Origin: Aromatoleum buckelii
Lineage (GTDB): Bacteria; Pseudomonadota; Gammaproteobacteria; Burkholderiales; Rhodocyclaceae
Assembly: GCF_012910785.2 (NCBI RefSeq)
Contig: NZ_WTVH02000009.1
Span: 1-64,000, forward strand
Length of the DNA: 64,000 nt
Direction of reading: 5' to 3'
Position 1 is the first letter of the stretch, and the number at the start of each line of letters is the position of its first letter. Below the pieces are notes generated by a model. The model searched no databases. It was not told the DNA's origin and was given only the letters and a program-made list of their open reading frames with translations. Both the position numbers and the translations under genes were made by a program. Positions 17,873 through 63,598 of this stretch are shown here, in pieces.

Positions 17873-17905
17873 GCCTGACCCGCCCCTGCCGGGCCCGGGT
17901 CAGGC
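17873..17905. terminator. Hairpin between convergent yjdM and the Wzz-like gene
   Basis: A perfect 10-base-pair stem (GCCTGACCCG with CGGGTCAGGC) encloses a 13-base loop. It overlaps the stop codon of the minus-strand gene. Neither strand has a T-run, so it may be a bidirectional stabilising stem or weak terminator. Confidence 0.5.
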
Positions 17906-19897
17906 GGAGCGTACATTGCGCAGTGCCGGATGAGTCCGGTCGATCTCTTCGAGGGGGCGCTTCCTGCCCGCCGGCGACAGCGCCGTGTAGGCGCCCAGCA
18001 TGTCGGCGGGGAGCCGTCCGACAATGCCGAACAGGTCCGCGAAACGCACGCCCTGGTGCACCAGATAAGCGATGTAGCTGTGGCGCAGCGCCGCGGACGT
18101 GATCTCGTCCGGGTCGGGGATGCCGGCATCGTGCGCGGCGTAAAGAAGCGTCGCGTCGAGCGCGTCGGGCGTCCCGTCACTCGTGGTCGGGGCGACCAGG
18201 GCGTCGTCTGTTTCCGGATGCTGTTCCCGGTACCGGCCCAACTGCGCCGCGAACGCCGCAGGCAGCGGCACGGCGCGGTCGGGCAGGAGAATCTGCCGGC
18301 CGGCCAGGTCGACCGCCGTCCATTTGAGCCGGGCGAGCTCGTCGAACGACACGCCGGAAAGCAGCGCGAGCGCGCCGATGCGGGGGTCGTCGGGCAGCTC
18401 GTCGAGCAGTTGCCCGATCTCGGCTTCGTCGAGTTCGCGCGGCAGGGGCGCCGCACCCGCGAGCAGCGCCGACGGGGCGAACTGGCCGAGCGCCTCCGGT
18501 GAGCGCGACGCCGGCAGCTGCACATTGCCGAGCCATGCCGGTGCGACAACGAGTGACGGCGCCGGGGGGGGGCGGTTGAACAGCTCGACGATCCAGGTCG
18601 TCAGCAACGCCAGCAGCAGCGATGCCGTGAGGCCGATCGCCGCGTCCCGGCCGTACTGCGGCCGCCACGGCTCGGCCGGCGGGAAAGCCGCTTCGAGCGT
18701 CGTGACTTCCGGGACGCGGATCCGCTCCGCAGCCTGCAGTCCGGTCGCCCTGACGACCGCCACCCGGTGCATCTCCTCGAGTCCGGTCAGCTCCTCCTGC
18801 ATCGCCTTGAACTCGCCCAGACGCGCCGTGAACGCCTGGACCGTCCGCCGCTCGCCGCCCGCCTGTTGAGCCAGCCGGTCCACGGCCGCGCGCGCCGCTG
18901 CGACTTCCTCTTCGGCGTCGCTCAGCGCTGCCTGCTGCCCCTTTTCGCGGACCTGCTGCAATTGTTCGTCCAGATTCGCGATGCGCATGCGCAGGGCCTT
19001 GGCGCGCGGATCGAAGGTGAGGAAGTCCGGCGTGTAGGCACGTTCCAGTTCGTGCTGCTCCTCGCGCAATTGCGATGCCCGCTGCTCCAGGTTCGACAGC
19101 GTCGGGTTGTCGCGCGCGCGGACGATCGACTTGCCGGCCGCGATCGAATCGCGCAGCGAACGCAGTTTCGCTTCGGCCGCGACGAGTCGGTCGTTCGCCG
19201 CGTTCAGCGATTGTCCGACGCCCTTGACCTGGCTGAGAACGCGGTTTTCGTCGCGCTCCAGCGAGACGATGTCGTGGTCGCGGCGATAGTCGTCGAGCGC
19301 GCGCCGTTTCTCGGCGACGCGCTCTTCGAGTTTCGCGGCTTCGTCCTGCGCCCTGGTCGCACGGCTGCCCGAATCCTGGCGATAACGCTCGGCGAGCTCG
19401 CTGCGGTAAGTCTCGATCAATGCGTTGACGAGCGGAGCGAGCGCTTCGGCCGGCCGGCCGCTCGCCGCGAGCTCGACGACGTCGGTTCCTTCGACCGGCG
19501 CCGCGTCGAGCATCTGCCGATAGTCCTCGACGCTATCCCCGCCCTCGTCTGAGCCGGCCGGCAGCGGCATACCGATGCCGGCGACCCGGGCGACCGCTTT
19601 CTCGACGAGCGGGCGGCTCGTGAGCACTTCGACTTCGGTCAGGAACGCCGCCTGGACTGCGGCTCTGCGCTCATCGGCGGTGTCGCCGTTGCCCGGCATG
19701 TCGATCCGCAGTCGTGCGGCGGTGCGGTATTCGGCGGGACGCGAGTAATCGTAGATCAGGCTCGCGGCGGCGAGCAGCAGGAAACTCAGGCCGAAGACCG
19801 CGATACGCCGCCGTTTGGGCGGTGCCGGATAGGCAGTCGGGGCGAGGCCGGGCCAGAACGGATCGACAGTAGTGGGGCCGGTGTCGTCGCGGATCAT
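17900..19897 (-). CDS. Wzz-like coiled-coil membrane protein fused to a degenerate tyrosine-recombinase domain
   Basis: The 665-residue product has two transmembrane helices (about 33-50 and 421-440) around a long, coiled-coil-rich extracytoplasmic part (about 185-380), as in Wzz/GumC chain-length regulators. The cytoplasmic tail (about 490-660) reads like the catalytic domain of a tyrosine recombinase: LLSGVSFDELARLKWTAVDL, then AALRHSYIAYLVHQGV, then GAYTALSP. R605, H606 and Y637 fit the RHxxY scheme. The first catalytic Arg is Ser (S517), the box II His is Ala and the second His is Arg, so strand exchange is unlikely. Polysaccharide genes are not adjacent. The ATG at 19897 is chosen because it overlaps the stop of a small leader ORF; in-frame ATGs also exist upstream. 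Confidence 0.75.
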   Translation of the reverse strand: MIRDDTGPTTVDPFWPGLAPTAYPAPPKRRRIAVFGLSFLLLAAASLIYDYSRPAEYRTAARLRIDMPGNGDTADERRAAVQAAFLTEVEVLTSRPLVEKAVARVAGIGMPLPAGSDEGGDSVEDYRQMLDAAPVEGTDVVELAASGRPAEALAPLVNALIETYRSELAERYRQDSGSRATRAQDEAAKLEERVAEKRRALDDYRRDHDIVSLERDENRVLSQVKGVGQSLNAANDRLVAAEAKLRSLRDSIAAGKSIVRARDNPTLSNLEQRASQLREEQHELERAYTPDFLTFDPRAKALRMRIANLDEQLQQVREKGQQAALSDAEEEVAAARAAVDRLAQQAGGERRTVQAFTARLGEFKAMQEELTGLEEMHRVAVVRATGLQAAERIRVPEVTTLEAAFPPAEPWRPQYGRDAAIGLTASLLLALLTTWIVELFNRPPPAPSLVVAPAWLGNVQLPASRSPEALGQFAPSALLAGAAPLPRELDEAEIGQLLDELPDDPRIGALALLSGVSFDELARLKWTAVDLAGRQILLPDRAVPLPAAFAAQLGRYREQHPETDDALVAPTTSDGTPDALDATLLYAAHDAGIPDPDEITSAALRHSYIAYLVHQGVRFADLFGIVGRLPADMLGAYTALSPAGRKRPLEEIDRTHPALRNVRSA

Positions 19898-20182: not shown

Positions 20183-20758
20183 TCAGTTGAAGCCGGGCGT
20201 GAAATCGGACGCTGTGCCCTCGTCCGGGGCAAGGGAGGGACGGACCCGCAGGGCGGTGAGAATGCCGGCGAGGATGTCAGCCGGAGGAGGGGGACAGCCG
20301 GGAACGGTGACGTCGACCGGGATGACGTTCGACACCCGCCCGCAGCTCGCGTAGCTCTCGCCGAAAATGCCGCCGGTGCAGCCGCAGTCGCCGATCGCGA
20401 CGACGAGCTTCGGCGCCGGGATCGCATCGTAGGTGCGCTTCAGCGCGAGCTCCATGTGACGCGACACCGGTCCGGTGACGAGCAGCATGTCGGCATGACG
20501 CGGGCTTGCGACGAACTTGATGCCGAGTCCCTCGATGTTGTAGTAGGGGTTGTTCAGCGCGTGGATCTCGAGTTCGCAGCCGTTGCACGAGCCGCCGTCG
20601 ACGTGTCGGATCGCCAGCGCGCGGCCGAGGATCGCGAGAATGTCGGGGTGGATCAGGTGGGCCCGGTGGCGCGACGGGGAAAGGGTCGGGGAGCGGGTCG
20701 GGGAGGCCGATGCGCCGGGACGGCGATGGCGGGCGATGTACTTGAGAATGTGCCACAT
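20183..20758 (-). CDS. NuoB/HyfI-like iron-sulfur subunit of an Ehr-type complex
   Basis: A 191-residue homologue of the small subunit of hydrogenase-4 and of complex I NuoB. All four ligands of the proximal [4Fe-4S] cluster are visible: the C58-x2-C61 pair in GSCNGCELE, one Cys of GDCGC (125/127) and C155 in PGCPP. The segments ADMLLVTGPV and VVAIGDCGCTGG are typical of the fold. The N-terminal 35 residues are basic and Ser/Pro-rich. The start overlaps the stop of the large-subunit gene by 1 base (TGATG). It is the last gene of the cluster, which is transcribed from about 28.3 kb. Confidence 0.88.
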   Translation of the reverse strand: MWHILKYIARHRRPGASASPTRSPTLSPSRHRAHLIHPDILAILGRALAIRHVDGGSCNGCELEIHALNNPYYNIEGLGIKFVASPRHADMLLVTGPVSRHMELALKRTYDAIPAPKLVVAIGDCGCTGGIFGESYASCGRVSNVIPVDVTVPGCPPPPADILAGILTALRVRPSLAPDEGTASDFTPGFN

Positions 20759-22302
20759 CACAGATCCTGCGCGGAATAGCCGAGGTTGAAGGATTTGTTG
20801 ATCAGCGGGAAGTCGGCGACGATGTTGTCGATGATCGCGTGCTCGATCACCGGCCAGTTCTGCCACGACGGATCGTGGCAATGGCAGCGCGCGATGCGCC
20901 CGCGCGCATCGGTTTCGAGCGCGACGAATATTTCGCCCCGCCAGCCTTCGATCCAGCCGGCACCGGACGCCGCGTCGCGAATCGCGATCGGGACATCGAG
21001 CGGGCCATCCGGCAGCGCGGCAAGCAGCGCGTCGATCAGCCGCAGCGACTCGAAACATTCGTCGAAGCGCACCGCGACGCGGGCCGCGACGTCGCCGTTG
21101 AACTGCGTGGACGCCGTCACTGCGAGCTTGTCGTACGGCGGCCACGGAAAGTCCACGCGCAGGTCGGCGACCTGCCCGCTCGCGCGCCCGGCGAGCCCGG
21201 TCAGCCCGAACCGCGCGGCGAGTTCCGGAGCGACCCGGCCGGTCGTCACGAAACGATCCTGCAAACCGGCATGCTCGTCGTAGATGTCCTTCAGTTCGGC
21301 AACTTCGGCGACGAGCGCAACTGCGTCGCGACGCAGTTGCGCCGCCGCGGCGGCGTCGAGGTCGCGCGCGACGCCCCCCGGCCGGATGCAGTCCATCAGC
21401 AGCCGGTGGCCGAACGCCTCGAAGTTCGCGCGCAGCCAGTCTTCGCGCAGGCGCGAGAACTGCGCGAGCGCGAAGCCGAACGCGGCATCGTTGCCGAGCG
21501 CACCGAGGTCGCCGAGGTGGTTCGCGACGCGCTCGCGCTCGAGCAGCAGCGCGCGCAGCCACGCGGCACGCTCCGGCACCGCCACGCCAGCAGCCGACTC
21601 GGCCGCCATTGCGTAGGCCCACGCATACGCCACCGTGCTGTCGCCGGACACGCGCCCCGCCAGCCGCGCCCCTTCGTCGATGTCCATGCCCATGAAGCGG
21701 CGCTCGATGCCTTTGTGCGTGTAGCCGAACCGCTCCTCGAGGCGCAGCACTTTCTCGCCAACGACCGAGAAGCGGAAATGCCCCGGCTCGATCGTACCGG
21801 CATGCACCGGCCCGACCGCAATCTCATGCACGCCGTCGCCTTCGACAAAGACGAAGGGGTAGTTGTCGGGCTGCGGAGCGAAGCGCTCCTGGCCGGTGTT
21901 CTCGATGCGCAGCGGGAAGTAGTCGGCCGGCCACGCGCCGTGGCGCAGCCACTGGCGGGAGTCCACGCTGTCCTCGGCGTCGATGCCGACGAGGTCGTGC
22001 GCAGCGCGCTGCATGCGGAGCGCGGGGACGAAGAAGCGCGAGATGTCCGGGTAGGCCGGGCGCATGACGTCGAGTCCGAGCTCCACCCAAAGCAAGCCTT
22101 CCGCGGTCGCGTAGGCGGTCGCCACCGCAAAACCGTCGCCCATCGCGCGTCGGTCGCTGCCCCACAGACTCACGAGCCGGCCTTTCGTTGTGGCGACCGC
22201 GAACGCGAGCGCGCTCCACTGCGTGGCATCGACGCGGGCGCGGTGCATCGGCAGCGGCGCAGCGAGTCGTTCGAAGCGGCAATCGAGTCCGGAAAATTGC
22301 AC
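20758..22302 (-). CDS. HyfG-like large subunit without NiFe cysteines (fused NuoC-NuoD type)
   Basis: The 514-residue protein combines a 30-kDa NuoC-like N-terminal part with a 49-kDa NuoD/hydrogenase-large-subunit part (VGPVHAGTIEPGHFRF, RFGYTHKGIERRF). In true group 4 hydrogenases the Ni-Fe site needs RxCGxC and DPCxxC. Here these read RVSGDS (217-222) and DPSWQN (477-482), so all four cysteines are lost. It therefore cannot be a classic hydrogenase and fits the described Ehr (energy-converting hydrogenase-related) family. The GTG start has GGAGG 5 bases upstream. Confidence 0.88.
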   Translation of the reverse strand: MQFSGLDCRFERLAAPLPMHRARVDATQWSALAFAVATTKGRLVSLWGSDRRAMGDGFAVATAYATAEGLLWVELGLDVMRPAYPDISRFFVPALRMQRAAHDLVGIDAEDSVDSRQWLRHGAWPADYFPLRIENTGQERFAPQPDNYPFVFVEGDGVHEIAVGPVHAGTIEPGHFRFSVVGEKVLRLEERFGYTHKGIERRFMGMDIDEGARLAGRVSGDSTVAYAWAYAMAAESAAGVAVPERAAWLRALLLERERVANHLGDLGALGNDAAFGFALAQFSRLREDWLRANFEAFGHRLLMDCIRPGGVARDLDAAAAAQLRRDAVALVAEVAELKDIYDEHAGLQDRFVTTGRVAPELAARFGLTGLAGRASGQVADLRVDFPWPPYDKLAVTASTQFNGDVAARVAVRFDECFESLRLIDALLAALPDGPLDVPIAIRDAASGAGWIEGWRGEIFVALETDARGRIARCHCHDPSWQNWPVIEHAIIDNIVADFPLINKSFNLGYSAQDL

Positions 22303-22303
22303 G

Positions 22304-23758
22304 TCAGCCTCCGATCATGCGCGCGGCCTCGCGGTACCAGCCGTCGAGCCAGGGCGGGATGTAGAGCCCGAGCATCAGCGCGAGCCCGAGATGGACGAAC
22401 ACCGGCAGCAACGCGGGCGGATGCGGGAGCGGGCGCAGCGAGGTTTCGCCGAACACCATCGGCTGGACGTGGCCGAAGATCGCCGCGAAGGCGACGCCGA
22501 GCGCGACGAGCAGGAACGGCGTCGCCCACGGCAGCTCGCGCATCGCGGTGGTGAGAATCAGGAACTCGCTCGCGAAGACGCCGAACGGCGGCATGCCGAG
22601 GATCGCCAACGCGCCGAGCATCAGGCCCCACCCGACCGTCGGATTGACTTTCAGCAGGCCGCGGATGTCCTCCATCAGCTGCGAACCGGCTTTCTGCGCG
22701 GCATGGCCGACGGCGAAGAAGATCGCCGATTTCACCAGCGCATGCACCGTCATGTGCAGCAGCCCGGCGAAATTCGCGATCGGGCCGCCGAGGCCGAACG
22801 CGAACGTCATCAAACCCATGTGCTCGATCGACGAGTACGCGAACATGCGCTTGACGTCACGCTGGCGCGACAGGAAGAAGGTCGCGACGACGACCGTGAC
22901 CAGGCCGAAGCCGATCATCATGCGCCCCGGCAGCCCGTTCGCCAGCGCGCCGTCGGCGAGCACCTTGCAGCGCAGCACCGCGTACAGCGCGACGTTGAGC
23001 AGCAGCCCCGACAGCACCGCCGAGATCGGCGTCGGCCCTTCAGCGTGCGCGTCGGGGAGCCAGTTATGCACTGGCACGAGGCCGACTTTCGTGCCGTAGC
23101 CGAGCAGCAGGAACACGAATGCGAGCGACAGGATCGACGGGTCGAGCAGATGCTTCGATTCGGCAAGATGCGTCCACAGCAGCGCGCCGTCGCCACCGCC
23201 GATCGCGCGTTCCGCGGCGAGGTACAGCAGGATCGTGCCGAAGAGTGCCTGGGCGATGCCGACGCCGCACAGGATGAAGTATTTCCACGCCGCTTCGAGG
23301 CTCGCCGCGGTGCGATACACCGACACCAGCAGCACCGTCGTCAGCGTCGCGGCTTCCATCGCGACCCACAGGATGCCGAGATTGTTGGTCGTCAGCGCGA
23401 GCAACATCATGCCGTTGAAGAGCTGGTACATGCTGTGGAAGAGCCGCATGCGCTGCGGCGTCATCTTGCCGTGGTCGCGCTCGATGCGCATGTACGGGCG
23501 CGAGAACAGCGACGTCGTGAAACCGACGAACGCGGTCAGCGTCACGAGGAACACGTTGAGCGCATCGACGAAAAACCACTCGCTCCATGCGAGCAGCGGC
23601 CCGCCGCGGATCACCTGCACGGTCAGCCACGCCGCCGCGGCCAGCGTGGCCAGACTGACGGCGGCGTTCAACTCCGGCGCCCATTCGCGTTCGCCCCACA
23701 GTGCGAGCAGCGCACCGCCGGCGAGCGGGATCGTGAGGACGAGGAGGAGGGCGTCCAT
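22304..23758 (-). CDS. HyfF-like antiporter subunit of the Ehr-type complex
   Basis: A 484-residue polytopic membrane protein of the NuoL/M/N-MrpA family. The functional Glu of the fifth core helix (WVAMEAATLT) and the Lys of TKVGLVPVHNWLPDAH are conserved. The position that is Lys in helix 8 of many relatives is Asn here (SGLLLNVALY). It should contribute to ion pumping. The ATG at 23758 has GGGGGA just upstream, and a GTG one codon earlier is possible. The stop precedes the next start by only 1 base. Confidence 0.88.
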   Translation of the reverse strand: MDALLLVLTIPLAGGALLALWGEREWAPELNAAVSLATLAAAAWLTVQVIRGGPLLAWSEWFFVDALNVFLVTLTAFVGFTTSLFSRPYMRIERDHGKMTPQRMRLFHSMYQLFNGMMLLALTTNNLGILWVAMEAATLTTVLLVSVYRTAASLEAAWKYFILCGVGIAQALFGTILLYLAAERAIGGGDGALLWTHLAESKHLLDPSILSLAFVFLLLGYGTKVGLVPVHNWLPDAHAEGPTPISAVLSGLLLNVALYAVLRCKVLADGALANGLPGRMMIGFGLVTVVVATFFLSRQRDVKRMFAYSSIEHMGLMTFAFGLGGPIANFAGLLHMTVHALVKSAIFFAVGHAAQKAGSQLMEDIRGLLKVNPTVGWGLMLGALAILGMPPFGVFASEFLILTTAMRELPWATPFLLVALGVAFAAIFGHVQPMVFGETSLRPLPHPPALLPVFVHLGLALMLGLYIPPWLDGWYREAARMIGG

Positions 23759-23761
23759 CAC

Positions 23762-23831
23762 GTCCCCCGCTGGGCCGCCCCGAGGGGGGCGTGCGTCCCC
23801 TGGGGGGGCAGCGCGGTGGCGATAGCCACAA
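23762..23831. repeat. GC-rich palindromic intergenic element (REP-like)
   Basis: The gap between the HyfE-like and HyfF-like genes holds nested G/C-run palindromes, for example GCCGCCCC against GGGGGGC and CCCCTGGGGG. Elements of this look are often scattered between genes in Rhodocyclales. Only this copy was seen in the window, so repeat status is inferred. It would form a stem inside the operon message. Confidence 0.4.
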
Positions 23832-23848
23832 GCGTGGGGGCTGTCATC

Positions 23849-24508
23849 TCAGTCCTCCTTGAGCTTTTCGAGATGGCGGATGTCGAGGCTGTCGAACTGT
23901 TCGCGGATCTGGAACATGAACACGCCGAGGATCAGGATGCCGACCAGCACGTCGAACGCGATGCCGAGCTCGACGATCATCGGCATGCCGGAGGTCGCCG
24001 CGGTCGCCGCGAAGAACAGGCCGTTCTCCATCGACAGGAAGCCGATGACCTGGGGCACCGCTTTCGCGCGCACGATCATCATCAGGAACGACAGCAGTAC
24101 GCACGCGAGCGCGATGCCGAGCGTGCCGCGCGCGATCGACGCCGACAGCCCGGCGATCGGCGCGGCCAGATTGAACGCGAAGATCACCAGCACGATGCCG
24201 ATCAGCATCGTCGTCGGGATGTTGAAGAGGGTCTCGACGTCCCAACGAACGTTGAGCCGTTCGATGACCCGGTGCAGCAGGATCGGGATCAGGATCACCT
24301 TCAATACGAAGGTCATTGCGGCCGAGTAGTACAGGTGATGCTGGCCGGTGAGAAAGCCGACGATCAGCGTCGCCGCCGCCAGCGCCGCGCCCTGCAGCGT
24401 GAAGAGGTGGATCAGCGTCAGGATGCGCCGCTGCGCGATCATCGCGAACGCGAGCACCAGCAGCACGACGGCGAACAGGTTGATCGACTGGGCGAGCAGC
24501 GAGGTCAT
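23849..24508 (-). CDS. HyfE-like membrane subunit of the Ehr-type complex
   Basis: A 219-residue protein with about six hydrophobic segments. It corresponds to HyfE, whose C-terminal part resembles NuoK (MIVRAKAVPQVIGFLSMENGLFF, IPILLHRVI). NuoK-type subunits carry a buried Glu in the ion path, and E is present in the SMENGLFFA segment. The gene follows hyfC-like by 6 bases. Confidence 0.85.
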   Translation of the reverse strand: MTSLLAQSINLFAVVLLVLAFAMIAQRRILTLIHLFTLQGAALAAATLIVGFLTGQHHLYYSAAMTFVLKVILIPILLHRVIERLNVRWDVETLFNIPTTMLIGIVLVIFAFNLAAPIAGLSASIARGTLGIALACVLLSFLMMIVRAKAVPQVIGFLSMENGLFFAATAATSGMPMIVELGIAFDVLVGILILGVFMFQIREQFDSLDIRHLEKLKED

Positions 24509-24514
24509 CGGTCC

Positions 24515-25462
24515 TTACGCTCCGAGCAGCACATGCACGAGCAGCGCAATGACTGCCAGCAGGAATGCGGTCGCGAGGAATTCCGGCACGCGGAAGAGCC
24601 GCATCTTCGCGTTGATCGTCTCGATCAGTGCGAGCAGCACGCCGCCGATCGCGAGCTTCGCGACGAGCACCGGAATCGCGAACAGGATCGTCAGCGGCGT
24701 GCCGGCCTCGGCAATGCCCCACGGTACGAACAGCGCGAGGCCGATGCACGAATACGCGAAGAGCTTCAGCGACGCCGCCCATTCGACGAGCGCGAGATGG
24801 CGGCCGGAGTACTCGAGGATCAGCGCCTCGTGGATCATCGTCAGCTCGAGGTGGGTCGCCGGGTTGTCGACCGGCACGCGCGCGTTCTCCGCGAGCGACA
24901 CCATGGTGAAGGCGACGCCGGCGACTGCCAGGCTCGGGTAGATCGCGAACGGCTGGTGCGCGAGCGTCTCGACGATCTTCGCGAGCGACGTCGATTGCGT
25001 GATCAGCGACGCGGAAAACAGCACCATCAGCAGCGCCGGCTCGGCGAGGAAGCCGACCAGCATCTCGCGGCGCGCACCGAGCGTGCCGAAAGACGTGCCG
25101 ATGTCCATCGCCGCGAGCGAGATGAACACGCGCGCGAGCGCAAACAGGCCGACCAGCGCGATCGCGTCGGCGGCCGGGGCGAGCGACAGGTCGGTCGACA
25201 GCGTCGGGGCGATGCCGCACGCGAGCGCCATGCTGCCGAACATCACGTAAGGCGCGACACGGAACAGCGGCGAGGCCGTCTCGGCGACGACCGATTCCTT
25301 GTTGAACAGCTTGTGCAGCACGCGGTACGGCTGCAGCAGGCTCGGCGCGCGCCGGTTCTGCAGCCACGCGCGCCACTGGTTGACCCAACCGGTCAACAGC
25401 GGCGCGAGCGCCAGCGCGAGGACGATCGCGAGCAACTGCGCGAAGAGGCCGGTGAAGGTCAT
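24515..25462 (-). CDS. HyfC/NuoH-like membrane subunit of the Ehr-type complex
   Basis: The 315-residue protein corresponds to HyfC/HycD and NuoH, the membrane subunit that docks the soluble arm. Typical blocks are GWVNQWRAWLQNRRAPSLLQ, FNKESVV, the acidic loop LAENARVPVDNPATHLELTMIHEAMILEYSG-like region and the C-terminal KMRLFRVPEFL. It overlaps the HyfB-like gene by 4 bases (ATGA). Confidence 0.9.
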   Translation of the reverse strand: MTFTGLFAQLLAIVLALALAPLLTGWVNQWRAWLQNRRAPSLLQPYRVLHKLFNKESVVAETASPLFRVAPYVMFGSMALACGIAPTLSTDLSLAPAADAIALVGLFALARVFISLAAMDIGTSFGTLGARREMLVGFLAEPALLMVLFSASLITQSTSLAKIVETLAHQPFAIYPSLAVAGVAFTMVSLAENARVPVDNPATHLELTMIHEALILEYSGRHLALVEWAASLKLFAYSCIGLALFVPWGIAEAGTPLTILFAIPVLVAKLAIGGVLLALIETINAKMRLFRVPEFLATAFLLAVIALLVHVLLGA

Positions 25463-27459
25463 GATTTCGCCACCAGCAGCAGCACGATCAGCGTGACGAA
25501 GCTGTACAGCAGGTAGATCGCGATGCGCCCCCGCTGCAGCCGCCCGACCACGCGCGCGATGCGCTCCGTGAGGCGCGCGAGAGGCAGGTACAGCCAGTGC
25601 CAGAAATGGTCCTCGATCGTCACTCGATACACCGGCCGCGCGTCGAAGGGCGCCGGCAGCTCGCGGCGCATGCGGAACACCGGCTCGAAGATCTGGCGGA
25701 TCGGCTGGCCGAAGCCCTCGGCAGTGTCCTGCATGCGTGCGGTCTGCGCCGGATAGCCGCAGTCCCATGCCGGCGCGCGGCGCAGCCGGCCGTGGTAGAA
25801 CCGGCGCACCAGCACGGCCGCGAGCAGGACCGCGAGGCCGACGACAACGAGGAATGCCAGCGGGTTGTAGCTCGCGCGCTCGAGCGAGCTCGGCGCAAGC
25901 AGCAGCCAGCCGTTCGCCCGCACCGTGGCGCCGATACCGCCGCCGACGAGGAGCTGCGTGACGCGGTCGATGATGCCGATGACCGGCACCGGGAACAGGC
26001 CGAGCAGCACGCAGCCGGCGCTGAGCCACACGAGCCCGGCGCGTTCGAGCGGCGATGCCGGGTGGGCTTCGGCGAGCTTCGGTTCGCGCGGCTGGCCGAG
26101 AAAGATCACGCCGAAGAACTTCACCATCGTGTAGCCGGCGAGCGCCGCGATCAGCGCGATGCCCGCGGCGAGCACCGGCACCAGCATGTTGAGGAAGGAG
26201 TCCGGCAGGTCGGTCGTGAACAGGAAGCTCTGCAGCAGCAGCCATTCGGAGACGAAACCGGAAAACGGCGGCAGCCCCGAGCTCGCGAGCACGCCGACGA
26301 GCGACAACCACGCGACCCACGGCATGCGCCGCATCAGCCCGCCGAGCTTGCCGAGACTGCGCTCGCCGGTCGAGTGCAGCACCGAGCCGGTCGCGAGGAA
26401 CAGCAGGCTCTTGAAGAACGCGTGGCCGATGACGTGGTACAGCGCCGCGGTCAGTGCCAGCGCGGACAGCGCGGTCATCCCGTACGCATTGAACAGCACG
26501 CCCAGGCCGAGGCCGACGAAGAGCAGCCCGATGTTCTCGATCGACGAATACGCGAGCAGGCGTTTCATGTCGGTCTGCACCGCGCTGAACACGACGCCAT
26601 ACAGCGCCGTCGCCAGCCCCACCGCGAGCAGAGCCACGCCCCACCACCACTGCTGCGCACCGAGGAGATCGAAGCCGACGCGCAGCAGCCCGTAGATTGC
26701 GGTCTTCAGCATCACGCCGCTCATCAGTGCCGACACCGGCGACGGCGCAGCCGGATGCGCTTCGGGCAGCCACACGTGCAGCGGCAGGATGCCGGCCTTC
26801 GCGCCGAAGCCGAGCGTCGCGAGCAGGAACGCGACCGACGCCCACAGCGGCGGCAGCGACTGTGCGCGCATGTTGGCGAAGGTGTAGTCGCCGGTGTTCG
26901 CCTGCAGCACGCCGAAGCACAGCAGGATCGCGATCGCGCCGACGTGCGCGATGAGCAGGTACAGGAAGCCGGCCGCGCGGATCGCCGGCACGCGGTGGTT
27001 TGTCGTGACGAGGAAGAACGACGACAGCGCCATCGTCTCCCACATCACCATGAACGCATAGGCGTCGTCGGCGAGCACGACCATCGCCATGCTGGCGAGG
27101 AAGAGATGGTATTCGAGGCACAGCAGGCCCGGCGGCGTTCCTTCGCCTTGACGGAAATAGCCGGCGGCGAAGACCGAGATGCCGACGCCGGTCGCGCCGA
27201 TCACAAACAGGAAGAATGCCGACAGGCCGTCGAGCCGCAGGTGGAACGGCAGATCCGGCAGGCCGAGCGCGAGGATCGCGGTCTGCGGCGTGTCGAACAT
27301 CGCCGCGAGCGCGAATCCGGCCAGCGCGAGCCCGAGCGCGGCGCCCGCCGGGAACAGCGTGCGGGCAACGAAAGCGGTGTTGCGCAACGCCGCGATTCCG
27401 GCGAGCCCGAGCGCGAGCCAGCCGGCGATGACGATCAGGATCCAGTCGAGAAGCAGCAC
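25459..27459 (-). CDS. HyfB-like antiporter subunit of the Ehr-type complex
   Basis: The 666-residue product has about sixteen hydrophobic segments, and the NuoL/M-type core shows the helix-5 Glu (MVMWETMALSSF), the helix-7 Lys (GFGAKAGILPLHVWLPEAHP) and the helix-8 Lys (SGVMLKTAIYG). The C-terminal extension ends with a further helix. The frame is open far upstream, but the hydrophobic N-terminus and the stop of the preceding gene point to the GTG at 27459, 13 bases after that stop. The ribosome binding site is weak, so the start is uncertain. Confidence 0.87.
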   Translation of the reverse strand: MLLLDWILIVIAGWLALGLAGIAALRNTAFVARTLFPAGAALGLALAGFALAAMFDTPQTAILALGLPDLPFHLRLDGLSAFFLFVIGATGVGISVFAAGYFRQGEGTPPGLLCLEYHLFLASMAMVVLADDAYAFMVMWETMALSSFFLVTTNHRVPAIRAAGFLYLLIAHVGAIAILLCFGVLQANTGDYTFANMRAQSLPPLWASVAFLLATLGFGAKAGILPLHVWLPEAHPAAPSPVSALMSGVMLKTAIYGLLRVGFDLLGAQQWWWGVALLAVGLATALYGVVFSAVQTDMKRLLAYSSIENIGLLFVGLGLGVLFNAYGMTALSALALTAALYHVIGHAFFKSLLFLATGSVLHSTGERSLGKLGGLMRRMPWVAWLSLVGVLASSGLPPFSGFVSEWLLLQSFLFTTDLPDSFLNMLVPVLAAGIALIAALAGYTMVKFFGVIFLGQPREPKLAEAHPASPLERAGLVWLSAGCVLLGLFPVPVIGIIDRVTQLLVGGGIGATVRANGWLLLAPSSLERASYNPLAFLVVVGLAVLLAAVLVRRFYHGRLRRAPAWDCGYPAQTARMQDTAEGFGQPIRQIFEPVFRMRRELPAPFDARPVYRVTIEDHFWHWLYLPLARLTERIARVVGRLQRGRIAIYLLYSFVTLIVLLLVAKS

Positions 27460-58461: not shown

Positions 58462-60006
58462 ATGGAAGAGCTATTTTCGCAGATAGCCGGATACGTGCGG
58501 GGAATGTGGCGGTTCCGCTGGTGGGGACTCGCCTTCGCGTGGATCGCCGGCATCACGGGGGGCTTCGTGATCTATTCGATGCCGGACCGATACGAATCCA
58601 CGGCCCGCATCTACGTCGACACGCAGTCGGTGCTGCGGCCGCTGATGTCGGGACTCGCAGTCCAGCCCAACATCAATCAGCAGATCGCGATTCTCAGCCG
58701 CACGCTGATCACGCGGCCGAACGTCGAAAAACTCATCACGATGGCCGATCTCGACTTGGGGGCCCGCACTCCGGCCGAGCGCGAGGCGCTCATCGCCGAA
58801 CTCACTGGGGGGCTCCAGATCCGGAGTGCCGGTCGGGACAACCTGTTCACGCTGGCTTACCAGGACGCTCATCCCGACCGCGCGCAGCGCATCGTCCAGG
58901 CCCTCGTATCATTGTTTGTGGAATCGGGCCTGGTCGGCAAGCGGCAGGATTCGACGTCGGCGCGGCGATTCATCGACGAGCAAATCGCCGGTTACGAACA
59001 GAAGCTCGGCGAAGCGGAGAACCGCCTGAAGGATTTTCGTCTGCGCAACATGGCGTTGCTCGGGGACGGGCGACGCGACTACGTTTCGCAGATGACGGAA
59101 CTGTCCACGCAACTGCGGCAGGCGGAACTTGAGCTGAAGGAAGCGGAGAATTCCCGCGATTCGCTCAAGCGTCAGCTTGTTGGGGAAGATCCGGTGCTCC
59201 TGGCACAACCGCCTAACCCGTTGTCGGTGGCGTTGCCGGAGATCGACGGACGGATAGATGCGCTGAAAAAAAACCTGGATGGCCTGCTGCTGCGGTACAC
59301 CGATGAGCATCCCGACATCGTCGGCGCACGGCGCGTGATTGCGCAGCTCGAGGAGCAGAAACAGAAGGAAGTCGAAGCCATGCAGAAGGCTGATACCGGC
59401 GCTCCGTGGGCGCCGAATGCCAACCCGGTCGTCCAGCAGATGAAGATTTCGCTCGCCGAGGCTGAGGCCCGGGTCGCATCGCTTGGGGCGCGGGTGGGCG
59501 AGTTCGGCTCTCGACTTGCACAGCTGCAGTCGTCGGCCGAACTCCTGCCGAAGATCGAAGCCGAGCAGACGCAGTTGAACCGGGATTACGAAGTGCATAA
59601 GCGCAATTACGAAGCCTTAGTGGCGCGCCGCGAATCGGCCAATATGTCCGTGGAAATGACCACCCAGGGGGGGGTCACTGAGTTTCGCGTTATCGACCCG
59701 CCCAGCTTGCCGAACAAGCCGGCGGCGCCGAACCGCGCGCTACTGATGCCGCTTGCCGGGCTGATCGGGCTGGCCGCCGGCATCGCATTGGCTTTCCTGC
59801 TTTCGCAGCTTCGCCCGGCTTTCGACAACGTGCGTTCGCTGCGGGAAGTCACCGGCTTGCCGGTGTTGGGCGCAGTCTCGCTGGTCGCGGATCCGGTGCT
59901 CCAGAAGAGACGACGCCGGGGCCTGATGGCGTTCGGTGGAGGCGTTGCGGGGTTCGTCGTGGTGGTCGCCGGGATGACCGCTATGGTTCAGTTGCTGCAG
60001 GGCTAG
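58462..60006 (+). CDS. XrtA-system polysaccharide chain-length determinant
   Basis: A 514-residue Wzz-family protein with helices near residues 23-43, 430-455 and 490-510 and a long coiled-coil domain between them (about 170-400). The Pro-rich IDPPSLPNKPAAPNRA motif precedes the second helix, as in the family. It controls sugar-chain length with the kinase encoded next. It has no recombinase-like tail, unlike the protein at 17.9-19.9 kb. Confidence 0.9.
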   Translation: MEELFSQIAGYVRGMWRFRWWGLAFAWIAGITGGFVIYSMPDRYESTARIYVDTQSVLRPLMSGLAVQPNINQQIAILSRTLITRPNVEKLITMADLDLGARTPAEREALIAELTGGLQIRSAGRDNLFTLAYQDAHPDRAQRIVQALVSLFVESGLVGKRQDSTSARRFIDEQIAGYEQKLGEAENRLKDFRLRNMALLGDGRRDYVSQMTELSTQLRQAELELKEAENSRDSLKRQLVGEDPVLLAQPPNPLSVALPEIDGRIDALKKNLDGLLLRYTDEHPDIVGARRVIAQLEEQKQKEVEAMQKADTGAPWAPNANPVVQQMKISLAEAEARVASLGARVGEFGSRLAQLQSSAELLPKIEAEQTQLNRDYEVHKRNYEALVARRESANMSVEMTTQGGVTEFRVIDPPSLPNKPAAPNRALLMPLAGLIGLAAGIALAFLLSQLRPAFDNVRSLREVTGLPVLGAVSLVADPVLQKRRRRGLMAFGGGVAGFVVVVAGMTAMVQLLQG

Positions 60007-60019
60007 GAGAGATCAATCC

Positions 60020-60997
60020 ATGAGTCTCATCGAAAAGGCCGTCGAGCGGCTCGGCCAGTTGCAGCGCGCCGACGGGCAGGTGCCGGAGGATGACGCCTGC
60101 CCCCTGGTTGAAGCCGCGAAAACCGCGGACGTTCCCGACCCCACGTCGACCGTTTCGCATGTGCGCGCCGCGCGGAGCGAACGTGCCGCGGAGATGCACC
60201 AGGCTGTCGGCATCGAACTCGATCTGGATCGCCTGACGCAAATCGGACTTGTCACGCCAAACCACCCGCGCTCGGTGATTGCCGAGGAGTATCGGGTGAT
60301 CAAGCGTCCGCTGATTCGCAACGCGCAGGGCAGGGGTGCTGCGGCGGTGGCCAATGGCAACCTCATCATGGTCACCAGTGCGCTGCCGGGCGAAGGCAAA
60401 TCGTTTACCGCGATCAACCTCGCGATGAGCATCGCGATGGAACTTGATCACACGGTCCTGCTGGTCGATGCCGATTTTTCCCGGCCGGCGGTCCTTTCGC
60501 GTCTCGGTTTGCCGCCCAGGAAGGGTCTCATGGACGTGCTGGTCGGCGATATCGGGGACCTTTCCGAAGTCATGCTGCGAACCAACGTCGAGAAGCTTTC
60601 GATTCTCCCCGCTGGCATGGCCCATCAGCGCGCGACCGAGCTGATTGCCTCGGATGCGATGAACCGTCTCCTCGAAGAAATGGCAACGCGTTACGCGGAA
60701 CGAATCATCGTGTTCGATTCTCCGCCGCTACTGGCCACCACCGAAGCGCGGGTTCTCGCGACCCACATGGGGCAGGTCGTGATGGTCGTCGAGTCCGACC
60801 GCACGACTCACGGCACTGTGCAGCAAGCGCTTTCGACAATCGACGCATGCCCGGTCAAGCTCCTCGTGCTCAACAAGGCGGCTGAGGGCGGGCGCGGCAG
60901 TCTCTACGGATATGGATACGGCTACGGATATGGTTATGGCGGAGGTTCTCGAACGGAAGAGCACGGTGCGGACGCACGGACAGACGCGGCGGCCTGA
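60020..60997 (+). CDS. XrtA-associated tyrosine autokinase (BY-kinase)
   Basis: The 325-residue cytoplasmic kinase has Walker A PGEGKSFTAINLA near residue 130, Walker A' VLLVDADFSRP and Walker B IIVFDSPP, the three motifs of bacterial tyrosine kinases. The C-terminus has six Tyr-Gly steps (YGYGYGYGYGYG) followed by GGGS, the expected autophosphorylation cluster. It partners with the chain-length protein upstream, 13 bases away. Confidence 0.92.
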   Translation: MSLIEKAVERLGQLQRADGQVPEDDACPLVEAAKTADVPDPTSTVSHVRAARSERAAEMHQAVGIELDLDRLTQIGLVTPNHPRSVIAEEYRVIKRPLIRNAQGRGAAAVANGNLIMVTSALPGEGKSFTAINLAMSIAMELDHTVLLVDADFSRPAVLSRLGLPPRKGLMDVLVGDIGDLSEVMLRTNVEKLSILPAGMAHQRATELIASDAMNRLLEEMATRYAERIIVFDSPPLLATTEARVLATHMGQVVMVVESDRTTHGTVQQALSTIDACPVKLLVLNKAAEGGRGSLYGYGYGYGYGYGGGSRTEEHGADARTDAAA

Positions 60998-61004
60998 AAT
61001 TCGC

Positions 61005-62507
61005 ATGGGTTGCAGGGGCAGCGCGAGCGTAAAACTTCTTGCGCTTGCCGGCATGGTGATCGTGGTCGGGAACGTGAACGCGCAAGTCTTCATCGTGCAG
61101 CCCTCGGTCCATTCGAGGCTGACCTATACCGACAACGTCGGCGCGACCGAGAACGGCGAGAGCGACTGGATCGCCGAAGTCACGCCGGCGATCGCGGTTG
61201 CCCGCGACCACGGCCGCATCACCGGGAACCTCGACGCCCGCCTGCGCAGTGTCATGTACGCCAACGACAGCGACCGGAATACGGCCTTCGTCGCGATGCA
61301 GGGGCGAGGCCAGGTCGAAGCGGTCGAAGACGTCCTTTTCGTCGACATGTCAGCTTCGGTCAGCCGCAACAACAGATCGGAGCTGAGGGGTCGGGGGTCG
61401 GAGGACTTTCTCTCTACCGACAGCGACAACGAGACTCGGATCTTTTCGCTCGGCCCGCGCCTGCACTTCAGGCTCGGTGCCGGCCCGGAGGGGGTGGCGA
61501 GCTACCGGATGAACTGGTTCGACAGCGGCGCGGGCATCGTTTCGCGCACGGTCGAGAACACGCGCGGCCAGCTCTCCGACCCGCAGGCTTTCGGCAGGGT
61601 GGGCTGGGCGCTGGATTATTCGTGCGCCGACACCCGTTATGACGACGTGAGGGACAGCGAGTTATCGGAGGAAATCGCTCGCGCGACGATGTTCCTGCAC
61701 GTGTCGCCCCAGTTCCGCCTGCGTGCCATCGCCGGCCACGAATCGAACGAGTATTCCGTGCGTTCCGGCGAGAGCAACTCGATCACCGGCGCAGGTTTCG
61801 ACTGGAATCCGACGCCGAGAACGAGTCTCTCCGCCACCGGCGAAGACCGGATTTTCGGTCGCAGCTATTACCTGGATTTCAACCATCGCCGGCCGCTGTC
61901 GTGGTGGAATGTTTCCTATTCGCGCGACATCACGTCCTCGGCTGAGACGGACGGCAGCGTCTTCGACGATCCGGCCTTTGCGAGCCTCTTCGACGCGCTC
62001 GCGACCGAAGTGCCGGACCCGTTCGAGCGCGAGGCTCTCGTGCGTCAGCAACTCGGATATCCGGGAATCGGGCTGTTCGATACGTTCGTGACCAACAACT
62101 ATTTCCTCGCCCGCACGCTGCGCGGCAGCGTGTCGCTGGTCGGGGCACGCAACGTTCTGACGCTCTCGGTACAGCGCAGCGAACGCACCCGCCTCGGCGA
62201 GCCGTTGGTCAGCGACCCGCGCGACGATCTTTCGCTCTTCAACGACGTTGAGACGCGCTCGGGAACCGTTTCCCTGAGTCACAGGCTGTCGCCCGCCGCG
62301 ACGTTGAACACCAGCCTCGTCCGTTCCTACTCGGAAGGTTCAGGTACGTCCGACGCCGAGACGAGGCGTACGACGTTTTCGCTCGGAGTCAGTTCACGCT
62401 TCGGCAGGCGAACCACCGGGAGCCTGATTTACCGCCACCAGCGGGCGGCGGGAACCAGCGATTTCACGGAAAACATCCTGACTGCCAGTGTCGGCATGCA
62501 GTTCTGA
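61005..62507 (+). CDS. XrtA-system outer-membrane beta-barrel protein (TIGR03016 type)
   Basis: The 500-residue precursor has a signal peptide (to about residue 27, VNA-QV) and a body of alternating beta strands ending in SVGMQF, a barrel-type C-terminus. It matches the PEP-CTERM system-associated outer-membrane family of unknown function. ATG 61005, 7 bases after the kinase stop, starts the signal peptide; the frame extends upstream into the kinase gene without one. Confidence 0.85.
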   Translation: MGCRGSASVKLLALAGMVIVVGNVNAQVFIVQPSVHSRLTYTDNVGATENGESDWIAEVTPAIAVARDHGRITGNLDARLRSVMYANDSDRNTAFVAMQGRGQVEAVEDVLFVDMSASVSRNNRSELRGRGSEDFLSTDSDNETRIFSLGPRLHFRLGAGPEGVASYRMNWFDSGAGIVSRTVENTRGQLSDPQAFGRVGWALDYSCADTRYDDVRDSELSEEIARATMFLHVSPQFRLRAIAGHESNEYSVRSGESNSITGAGFDWNPTPRTSLSATGEDRIFGRSYYLDFNHRRPLSWWNVSYSRDITSSAETDGSVFDDPAFASLFDALATEVPDPFEREALVRQQLGYPGIGLFDTFVTNNYFLARTLRGSVSLVGARNVLTLSVQRSERTRLGEPLVSDPRDDLSLFNDVETRSGTVSLSHRLSPAATLNTSLVRSYSEGSGTSDAETRRTTFSLGVSSRFGRRTTGSLIYRHQRAAGTSDFTENILTASVGMQF

Positions 62508-62518
62508 CCGGGGATCGA

Positions 62519-63598
62519 ATGTACGAATCGTATTTCAAGCTCCGCGCAAAACCCTTTCAGCTCAATCCCGATCCGGCATTTTTTTATGGCAGCCGGGGTC
62601 ATCGACGGGCGATGGCGTATCTCGAATACGGGCTGCACCAGAACGAGGGGTTCATCGTCGTGACGGGAGAAATCGGCGCCGGCAAGACGACGCTGGTGCG
62701 CAGCCTGCTCGAGCGTCTCGAGCCCAGCAAGGTCGTCGCGGCGAACCTGGTCAGCACGCAGGTCGATCAGAACGACATCTTGCGTATGGTCGCGGTGGCG
62801 TTCGGCGTGCCGAGCCGGGGGCTCGACAAGGCCGGCCTGCTGCTCGCACTCGAAACCTACTTCGTGTCGCTGGCCGCTGCGGGCAAGCGGGCGCTGCTGA
62901 TCGTCGACGAGGCGCAGAACCTCTACGAGAAAGCGGTCGAAGAGCTTCGCATGCTGTCGAACTTCCAACTCGAGGATCACGCGCTGCTGCAGAGCTTCCT
63001 TGTCGGCCAGCCCGAGTTCAGGGAGGTCATGCAGAGCCCGCAGATGCAGCAGCTGCGGCAGCGGGTGATCGCCTCGTATCATCTCGGTCCGATGGACGCC
63101 GAGGAGACGCGCGCCTATATCGAGCATCGCCTGCATCACGTCGGATGGGAGAACGACCCGGTTTTCGCCCCCGAAGCGTTCGACGCGATTTACGGCTACA
63201 CCGGAGGCATCCCACGGCGCATCAACGCCCTGTGCGACAGGCTGATGCTGTCCGCATTCCTCGCGGAGTGTCACGAAGTGTCCGGGGAAGACGTGCGCGA
63301 AATCGTCGCCGAACTGAAGGAAGAGTTCGACTCGGCGCCGCGGCGGGGTACGAACGGAAAACCGGTTCCGTTCCAAGGCGGCGCCTTTGCGCCGGGATCA
63401 ATCGATCCGGCTCGTCTGGTAGTCCCCCAAGGGCTCGCGGGGCAGGTCGCCGGCATGGCGGCCGGTTTCGATGTGCAGCGCATCGAGGCGCGCATCGTCG
63501 GACTCGAACATTCGCTGTCGGCCACGCTCGACGTCCTCAACCAGCTCCTGGCGGCAGTGCGGCGCGACGGCACGACGGAGGATTCGCCTCATGACTGA
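62519..63598 (+). CDS. XrtA-associated secretion ATPase (ExeA-like)
   Basis: The 359-residue AAA ATPase has Walker A TGEIGAGKTTLV near residue 46 and Walker B ALLIVDEAQNL near 125, with the MYESYFKLRAKPFQLNPDP N-terminus typical of the ExeA/GspA and PEP-CTERM-locus ATPases. Its C-terminal 80 residues are variable and may contact partner proteins. The stop overlaps wecB by 8 bases. Confidence 0.9.
   Translation: MYESYFKLRAKPFQLNPDPAFFYGSRGHRRAMAYLEYGLHQNEGFIVVTGEIGAGKTTLVRSLLERLEPSKVVAANLVSTQVDQNDILRMVAVAFGVPSRGLDKAGLLLALETYFVSLAAAGKRALLIVDEAQNLYEKAVEELRMLSNFQLEDHALLQSFLVGQPEFREVMQSPQMQQLRQRVIASYHLGPMDAEETRAYIEHRLHHVGWENDPVFAPEAFDAIYGYTGGIPRRINALCDRLMLSAFLAECHEVSGEDVREIVAELKEEFDSAPRRGTNGKPVPFQGGAFAPGSIDPARLVVPQGLAGQVAGMAAGFDVQRIEARIVGLEHSLSATLDVLNQLLAAVRRDGTTEDSPHD

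Follow-up and report, generated by a model that had tools for sequence, protein, structure and literature searches.

What does a polysaccharide co-polymerase (PCP) gain from a recombinase-like domain at the place of a kinase? PCPs determine the growth length of bacterial surface polymers, and this control is thought to go through tyrosine phosphorylation. The question is raised by a gene in a stretch of 64,000 nucleotides of Aromatoleum buckelii (contig NZ_WTVH02000009.1, positions 1 to 64,000), which we refer to as the window. A sequence-only reading had described its product as a Wzz-like chain-length protein with two transmembrane helices around a coiled coil, followed by a cytoplasmic tail with the layout of a tyrosine recombinase and three altered catalytic positions.

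Architecture of the Fusion Protein

The gene occupies 17900..19897 on the minus strand and encodes a Wzz/Wzc-type co-polymerase joined to a degenerate tyrosine-recombinase catalytic domain. Its frame of 665 residues runs from an ATG at 19897 to a stop codon ending at 17900. In a relative from the same genus (G005, locus L002), the frame offers no start codon within reach other than the counterpart of 19897, which favors the 665-residue start. A scan for promoters and terminators found none.

From the N-terminus, the minus-strand segments are a first transmembrane helix (TM1, residues 28–52; 19742..19816), a periplasmic α/β base with a long coiled coil (residues 53–415; 18653..19741), a second transmembrane helix (TM2, residues 416–441; 18575..18652), a cytoplasmic linker (residues 442–486; 18440..18574), and the tail, a tyrosine-recombinase catalytic fold without most of the catalytic residues (residues 487–665; 17903..18439). 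The periplasmic part was delimited from the model, Foldseek, and TIGR03007, and the tail from profile searches, the model, and Foldseek. The two membrane helices of the sequence-only reading are borne out, since hydropathy peaks start at residues 31–32 and 419, on either side of the coiled coil, and the full-length model contains helices at residues 28–52 and 415–441. This model has a pLDDT of 81.8 and a low pTM of 0.38, which leaves the placement of the domains open.

Two transmembrane helices flanking an α/β base and a coiled coil are the architecture typical of a PCP. The two best curated family matches of the protein, each under its cut-off, are TIGR03007, the chain-length determinant of XrtA systems (2.7e-13, residues 35–377; 49 bits, cut-off 278.85), and NF040815, the NCBIfam XerA family (6.2e-7, residues 485–623; 29 bits, cut-off 220). 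Pfam gives weak matches only, including Phage_integrase at 0.044 and Wzz at 0.17. Foldseek on the full-length model returned Wzc (9r68, 9e-10), KpsE, and WzzE, and also XerA, through the tail; the TM-scores of these matches are low (0.2–0.3 on the query), which a chain of this length and flexibility would lead one to expect. In PCP and Wzz–Wzc co-polymerases, a Pro-rich motif precedes TM2. Here, P413 is invariant in alignments of 16 and of 27 rows, and P407 is found in at least 90% of the 27 rows. The N-terminal two thirds are thus homologous to PCPs and share their fold, and they would presumably oligomerize and function as a PCP as well.

The fusion resembles Wzc-type PCP-2a and CapAB-type PCP-2b proteins in its two transmembrane helices, α/β base, and long periplasmic coiled coil, and it shares with Wzc a folded cytoplasmic C-terminal domain. 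However, Wzc-type PCP-2a proteins carry a BY kinase and a Tyr-rich tail, whereas the fusion carries a recombinase fold; Pfam and the curated families gave no match to a kinase domain in its cytoplasmic part, and there is no Tyr-rich tail.

Recombinase Fold and Catalytic Residues of the Tail

The proposed tyrosine-recombinase layout of the tail is corroborated by profile and structure searches. The window tail alone matches PF00589 at 0.0049, under the Pfam cut-off, and 40 of the 46 homologous tails match this family at E ≤ 1, the best at 1e-10. A profile built from the 46 tails retrieved from the PDB XerA (6.4e-15), an archaeal XerC-like protein (3.4e-14), IntI4 (4.3e-14), and XerD (8.9e-12). 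An AlphaFold2 model of residues 470–665, based on 27 alignment rows, has a pLDDT of 87.6 and a pTM of 0.84. Its best Foldseek match is a tyrosine recombinase, XerA (5hxy_F; E 6.3e-6, TM 0.62 on the query, rmsd 3.9), with an integron integrase, other Xer proteins, and integrases at the next ranks. The models therefore support a tyrosine-recombinase catalytic fold, with a fit that is clear but moderate. No core-binding domain is seen ahead of the tail in the full-length model, where only the linker is present, disordered at residues 445–481 (pLDDT <50).

With Xer and XerA proteins the tail has in common the catalytic-domain fold, the GxxxxEL, LRH, and G..Y motifs, and a C-terminal Pro. The core residues G515, E520, R541, G616, and G627, together with P657 in the C-terminal region (44 of 46 tails), occur in the intact Xer domains as well. 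Unlike these proteins, the tail has lost key residues, has a short Lys hairpin, is acidic, shows no core-binding domain, and is tethered to the membrane.

The catalytic positions were located by alignment with intact recombinases. The Arg-I position is S517 in the window protein (18347..18349) and is Arg in none of the 46 tails; the box-II His position is A602 (18092..18094) and is His in none. At the third-box position, R628 in the window (18014..18016), the His or Trp has been lost in 44 of 46 tails, with His retained in L028 and Trp in L056. The three substitutions named by the sequence-only reading (Ser at position 517, Ala for the box-II His, and Arg for the second His) are confirmed by this comparison. 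A fourth alteration, absent from that reading, is the shortening of the catalytic Lys hairpin. The Lys column between β2 and β3 is a gap in 46/46 tails, and the window hairpin, shorter like the others than in recombinases, has no Lys; this placement depends on the alignment, and in a few tails (L056 and L025, for example) a Lys does occur close by within the shortened hairpin.

The 21 intact recombinases used for comparison came from the source genome and its order relatives and are biased to XerC/XerD. They were selected with a motif requiring Arg-I, HxxR, the third box, and Tyr, which fixes their counts at these positions by construction; the motif made no requirement of Lys. The complete loss of Arg-I and of the box-II His, together with the nearly complete loss of the third-box residue, leads us to reject an active recombinase. 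Judged from its residues, the tail is no recombinase, and neither DNA cleavage nor recombination is to be expected of it.

Some positions are conserved in the tails and not in recombinases, namely D590 (44/46), Q615 (45/46), R618 (36/46), and D621 (38/46). From the alignment, this patch is a candidate interface.

Recurrence and Descent of the Fusion

Homologues were found as 46 distinct proteins from 46 genomes, 45 of them with both halves. The remaining one (L026, from G135) lacks its N-terminus at a contig end and was left out of the half-by-half comparison, for which 45 of 46 proteins were used. Among the 61 nearest genomes, 11 matched at E ≤ 1e-3; both halves are present in eight, including the source genome, and G027, G041, and G045 have the Wzz half only. 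The fusion is also carried by 10 of 399 genomes of the order sample, with the source genome and G051, one of the eight above, among them and G135 cut by the contig end, and by 6 of 369 genomes of the class sample, again including the source genome; a seventh match there, G622, has the Wzz half only. Among named genomes, a scan found 28 fusion loci, whose carriers include Aromatoleum, Thauera, Accumulibacter, Paucibacter, Rhodoferax, Ectothiorhodospiraceae, and Chromatiales, and further Alteromonas, Colwellia, Paraglaciecola, and Motiliproteus. The carriers thus range from Rhodocyclales to Alteromonas and Colwellia in a patchy distribution, and identity to the window protein falls to about 20–23% at its lowest.

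The distances of the two halves are closely correlated across the 45 proteins (Mantel r 0.939, reached by 0 of 2000 permutations), with mean distances of 0.67 for both the PCP half and the tail. Of 26 splits with good support in the PCP tree, 17 reappear in the tree of the tails, and set against the 21 intact recombinases the tails group as a single clade (support 0.93). Because the halves diverge in parallel and the tails form a single clade, the sequences look like the outcome of one old fusion that was passed on as a unit. An assembly error or a chance fusion is ruled out by this recurrence with parallel divergence. Neither of the two refuting conditions set by the sequence-only reading, a model that fails to match the recombinase fold and a lack of fusions elsewhere, thus came true.

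At 1e-20, all six matches of the tail in the 369 class genomes lie within frames of 663–720 residues, and no free-standing tail was found there, with at most eight candidates scored per genome. Six tail matches were obtained in 349 phylum genomes at 1e-18. They comprise G000, G051, a carrier-like G1096 (680 residues), and three matches in frames of 295–426 residues (G858, G993, G1015), which were taken to be ordinary recombinases.

Mobile cargo was also considered and rejected. A plasmid collection gave no match at 1e-15. Among the neighbors in 27 loci, inspected by eye, a transposase-like gene adjoins L038 and an integrase-like one is close to L049, but there is no mobile gene that accompanies the fusion repeatedly. 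Elsewhere in the source genome, two trios of adjacent integrase matches lie in opposite orientation (G000:C1, approximately 67757-70145 on the plus strand and 85269-87704 on the minus strand), an arrangement that we take to be reminiscent of recombinase-in-trio elements. Another co-polymerase-like match, at G000:C2:1538938-1540305, contains one in-frame TAG and is possibly a broken or misread gene.

Within the genus, dN/dS over 10 pairs is 0.30 for the tail, 0.16 for the periplasmic part, 0.27 for the linker, and 0.05 for TM2, the lowest value among the five regions compared. Purifying selection therefore acts everywhere; it constrains the tail less than the periplasmic part, and the disordered linker is constrained at least as much as the tail.

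Association with XrtA Polysaccharide Systems

The description of the gene as lying alone, away from the eps locus, holds for its immediate surroundings, where it is flanked by TrxC- and YjdM-type genes and, on the opposite side, by a complex I-like cluster. An XrtA polysaccharide locus is nevertheless present in the window, about 38 kb away. The neighboring complex I or group-4 hydrogenase-like membrane cluster spans 20183-27459 on the minus strand. Its NuoD-like subunit (20758-22302), inspected by eye, seems to lack the Cys pairs that, we assume, bind the NiFe site; the cluster may therefore be a hydrogenase-related complex, presumably of the Ehr type, rather than a hydrogenase.

The XrtA locus is encoded on the plus strand, and its window genes all score over the respective cut-offs. 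The first XrtA-type gene encodes the XrtA/PEP-CTERM exopolysaccharide export protein (TIGR03027; 57754..58389). It is followed by the canonical XrtA chain-length co-polymerase, the paralogue of the fusion (TIGR03007, 664 bits; 58462..60006), the XrtA-associated tyrosine autokinase, a separate protein (TIGR03018; 60020..60997), a TIGR03016 outer-membrane protein (60912-62507), and a TIGR03015 ATPase (62519-63598). A PF09721 profile search located an exosortase past the window end (G000:C4:66767-67519). TIGR03007 is the closest curated family of the PCP half of the fusion, and co-occurrence places both in the same system. However, the canonical member has 514 residues, an adjoining kinase gene, and no recombinase-like tail, and the fusion scores far under the family cut-off.

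An exosortase (PF09721) was found in 44 of 46 carriers (20/20 and 24/26), the exceptions being G1105 and G1122, both MAGs. It is present in 26 of 53 noncarrier relatives (34 of 61 less the eight carriers) and in 61 of 185 class genomes, 59 of them over the cut-off. Fisher tests, which ignore relatedness, give 1.8e-5 for 20/20 carriers versus 26/53, 8e-4 when counted by genus (10/10 versus 17/41, the latter hand-counted), and 3e-16 for 44/46 versus 58/182, the class sample minus three known carriers. Thirty-five of the 46 carriers were tested for the canonical XrtA PCP, which scores over the cut-off in 33 of them; G135 and G1122 are the misses.

In some lineages, the fusion is found beside polysaccharide genes. 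In Colwellia G1123, a single contig carries the canonical PCP at 346 kb, the fusion at 364 kb, and the exosortase at 383 kb; the fusion lies inside the XrtA locus there. Within 10 kb of the fusion at this locus (L073) are glycosyltransferase-, pyruvyltransferase-, and flippase-like genes and an XrtA-type ligase (TIGR03097), all called from NCBIfam matches under the curated cut-offs. At L064, an XrtA-type ATPase gene, over the cut-off, is two genes away from the fusion, and galE adjoins it. In most other loci, where the neighbors were partly named by eye, the fusion stands among unrelated genes. No conserved operon partner was found, the fusion gene being the only family common to all loci (20/20; 45/45, among the matches listed). 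Other neighbors are common only within related groups, for example, Aromatoleum, the Thauera-like group, Alteromonas, Colwellia, and some other Alteromonadaceae, so that direct linkage to polysaccharide genes is confined to some lineages (Colwellia, L064, L041). VanZ-like membrane proteins are encoded near the fusion at L064:4221-4643 (NCBIfam) and, by eye, at L041:3171-4547 and L039:428-3712; they are perhaps another loose tie to polysaccharide systems. The XrtA/PEP-CTERM polysaccharide machinery is the likely partner system of the fusion.

Proposed Role of the Pseudo-Recombinase Tail

We propose that the fusion is a second, kinase-free PCP of XrtA/PEP-CTERM exopolysaccharide systems, in which the pseudo-recombinase tail would act as a protein scaffold; we assign this a probability of roughly 0.55. 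The computation shows the architecture and that it recurs, that catalytic residues and charge were lost, and that carriers are associated with XrtA; the proposal builds on these findings and would predict an oligomer, a partner, and an effect on the polymer. By homology and fold, the N-terminal two thirds are an inner-membrane PCP, which would form a ring around a Wzy-type polymerase and the export channel. In this family, which goes back to one old fusion, the recombinase fold has lost catalysis and positive charge and is under purifying selection. The tail may have become a binding or sensing module, and most likely it works as a protein–protein module. It could self-associate, perhaps through ring-forming recombinase contacts, or it could instead dock a cytoplasmic partner. 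Such a module would govern how the PCP assembles, with no need for phosphorylated tyrosines.

In the cyclic tetramers of tyrosine recombinases, each subunit hands a C-terminal segment to its neighbor. The retention of the Pro in the C-terminal region of nearly all tails makes self-association within a PCP ring an attractive, if unproven, idea. A comparable arrangement is offered by EcpK, a pseudokinase proposed, in the available part of PMC12004946, to scaffold PCP assembly and thereby replace phosphorylation. EcpK and the tail are alike in being dead enzyme folds; EcpK, however, is described there as a dead kinase and a separate protein, whereas the tail is a dead recombinase fold and is fused to the PCP. 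By analogy, the fusion would fit a further solution, with a dead recombinase fold as the scaffold.

More tentatively, the fusion could represent a third route of PCP control, in which a recombinase fold without chemistry or DNA contacts drives ring assembly through its old cyclic contacts. We regard this as possible, though doubtful. If it were true, XrtA systems would contain a class of PCPs independent of kinases and phosphorylation. Counting against the proposed role are the presence of a canonical PCP besides the fusion in nearly all tested carriers, the two carriers without an exosortase, and co-occurrence counts that ignore relatedness. The restriction of direct linkage to some lineages, the rather relaxed selection on the tail, the low pTM and TM-scores of the full-length model, the Arg-II and Tyr kept in most members, and the one net positive tail (L028) also weigh against it.

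Several other roles have to be weighed against this scaffold. The tail might sense the state of the pathway by binding a small anionic ligand, such as a lipid-linked sugar phosphate or a nucleotide, in the remnant site formed by Arg-II, His606, and Tyr637. While the other catalytic residues are gone, Arg-II (R605 in the window) is kept in 40 of 46 tails (replaced by His in four, Trp in one, and Phe in one), the following His in 38, and the nucleophile Tyr (Y637; 17987..17989) in 38 (Leu in seven, Cys in one). The retention of Arg-II and Tyr in most members makes a residual pocket function possible. However, these residues are missing in some lineages, and R605 and H606 may serve the stability of the fold only. 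We therefore consider ligand sensing unlikely. In the lineage of L023, L024, and L026, the tails have kept neither Arg-II nor the His after it nor the Tyr; nothing of the remnant active site is left there, yet the fusion persists.

The fusion might also be a negative or competing PCP that co-assembles with the canonical XrtA PCP, its tail keeping the kinase off and thereby tuning chain length. The presence of the canonical PCP and its kinase in the same window, and of this PCP in most carriers, would suit such a role, as would the homology of the two PCP halves. The fusion aligns with the canonical window PCP over residues 31–441 (E 1.3e-6 against that single sequence), and the canonical protein scores 66.8 bits with a profile made from the PCP halves of the fusion family. 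However, the two window proteins share only 24% identity, which makes mixed rings doubtful, and we find this role quite unlikely.

Another possibility is that the tail, tethered to the membrane, binds DNA as a regulator derived from a recombinase that became a repressor; it would then link the state of the periplasmic polymer to transcription in the way of ToxR/CadC-like regulators. The fold itself is a DNA-binding one. According to the available part of PMC10516654, MrpR of the Bacillus phage SPβ (8A0A) has, like the tail, a tyrosine-recombinase fold that has lost recombination, and it binds DNA; the tail shows a weak structural match to it (8a0a, rank 50, E 0.11). In that same text, MrpR keeps its core-binding domain and is not part of a membrane protein, unlike the fusion, in which a disordered linker stands in place of this domain. 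The charge of the tail is also unfavorable. Net charge is negative in 45 of 46 tails (mean −4.05 per 100 residues, mean pI 5.2; −5.6 and pI 4.8 for the window tail), whereas all 21 intact recombinase domains are net positive (mean +4.2, pI 10.1), and a looser set of 44 recombinase frames, individually unchecked, is basic throughout. The absence of Arg-I, of the box-II His, and, in most tails, of the third-box His also speaks against this role, as does the shortened Lys hairpin. Since the tail is acidic and no core-binding domain is seen, DNA binding is unlikely, and a regulator of this kind is distinctly so. The acidic tail suggests that the fusion family took another path than MrpR, in which the chemistry was lost and DNA binding was kept. 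The sole positive tail, that of L028 (+1.5 per 100 residues), is also the only one with a third-box His, and it still lacks Arg-I and the box-II His.

Finally, it is very improbable that the fusion has no function, being in decay, a product of chance, or an artifact of assembly: the patchy spread and a tail dN/dS no lower than that of the linker would agree with this, but the 46 distinct homologues in 46 genomes, the parallel divergence of the two halves, dN/dS values well under 1, and tail-specific conserved residues all argue against it.

Conclusions

Among the matches listed, no description of a PCP–recombinase fusion appeared in titles and abstract openings of the open-access literature. 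In the available parts of the articles, the word "recombinase" is absent from PMC1569441, PMC9850573, and PMC3684757, and "integrase" from PMC9850573 and PMC3684757. A domain search could label such genes as integrases, so that they could be missed.

The fusion is a clear case of the fold of a DNA-processing enzyme relocated to the membrane, probably for a job that does not involve DNA. A PCP family with a dead recombinase at the place of the kinase provides a natural test of phosphorylation-free control. Some XrtA/PEP-CTERM systems matter for floc formation, as stated in the available part of PMC9850573, and the fusion may be an additional component of XrtA/PEP-CTERM systems.
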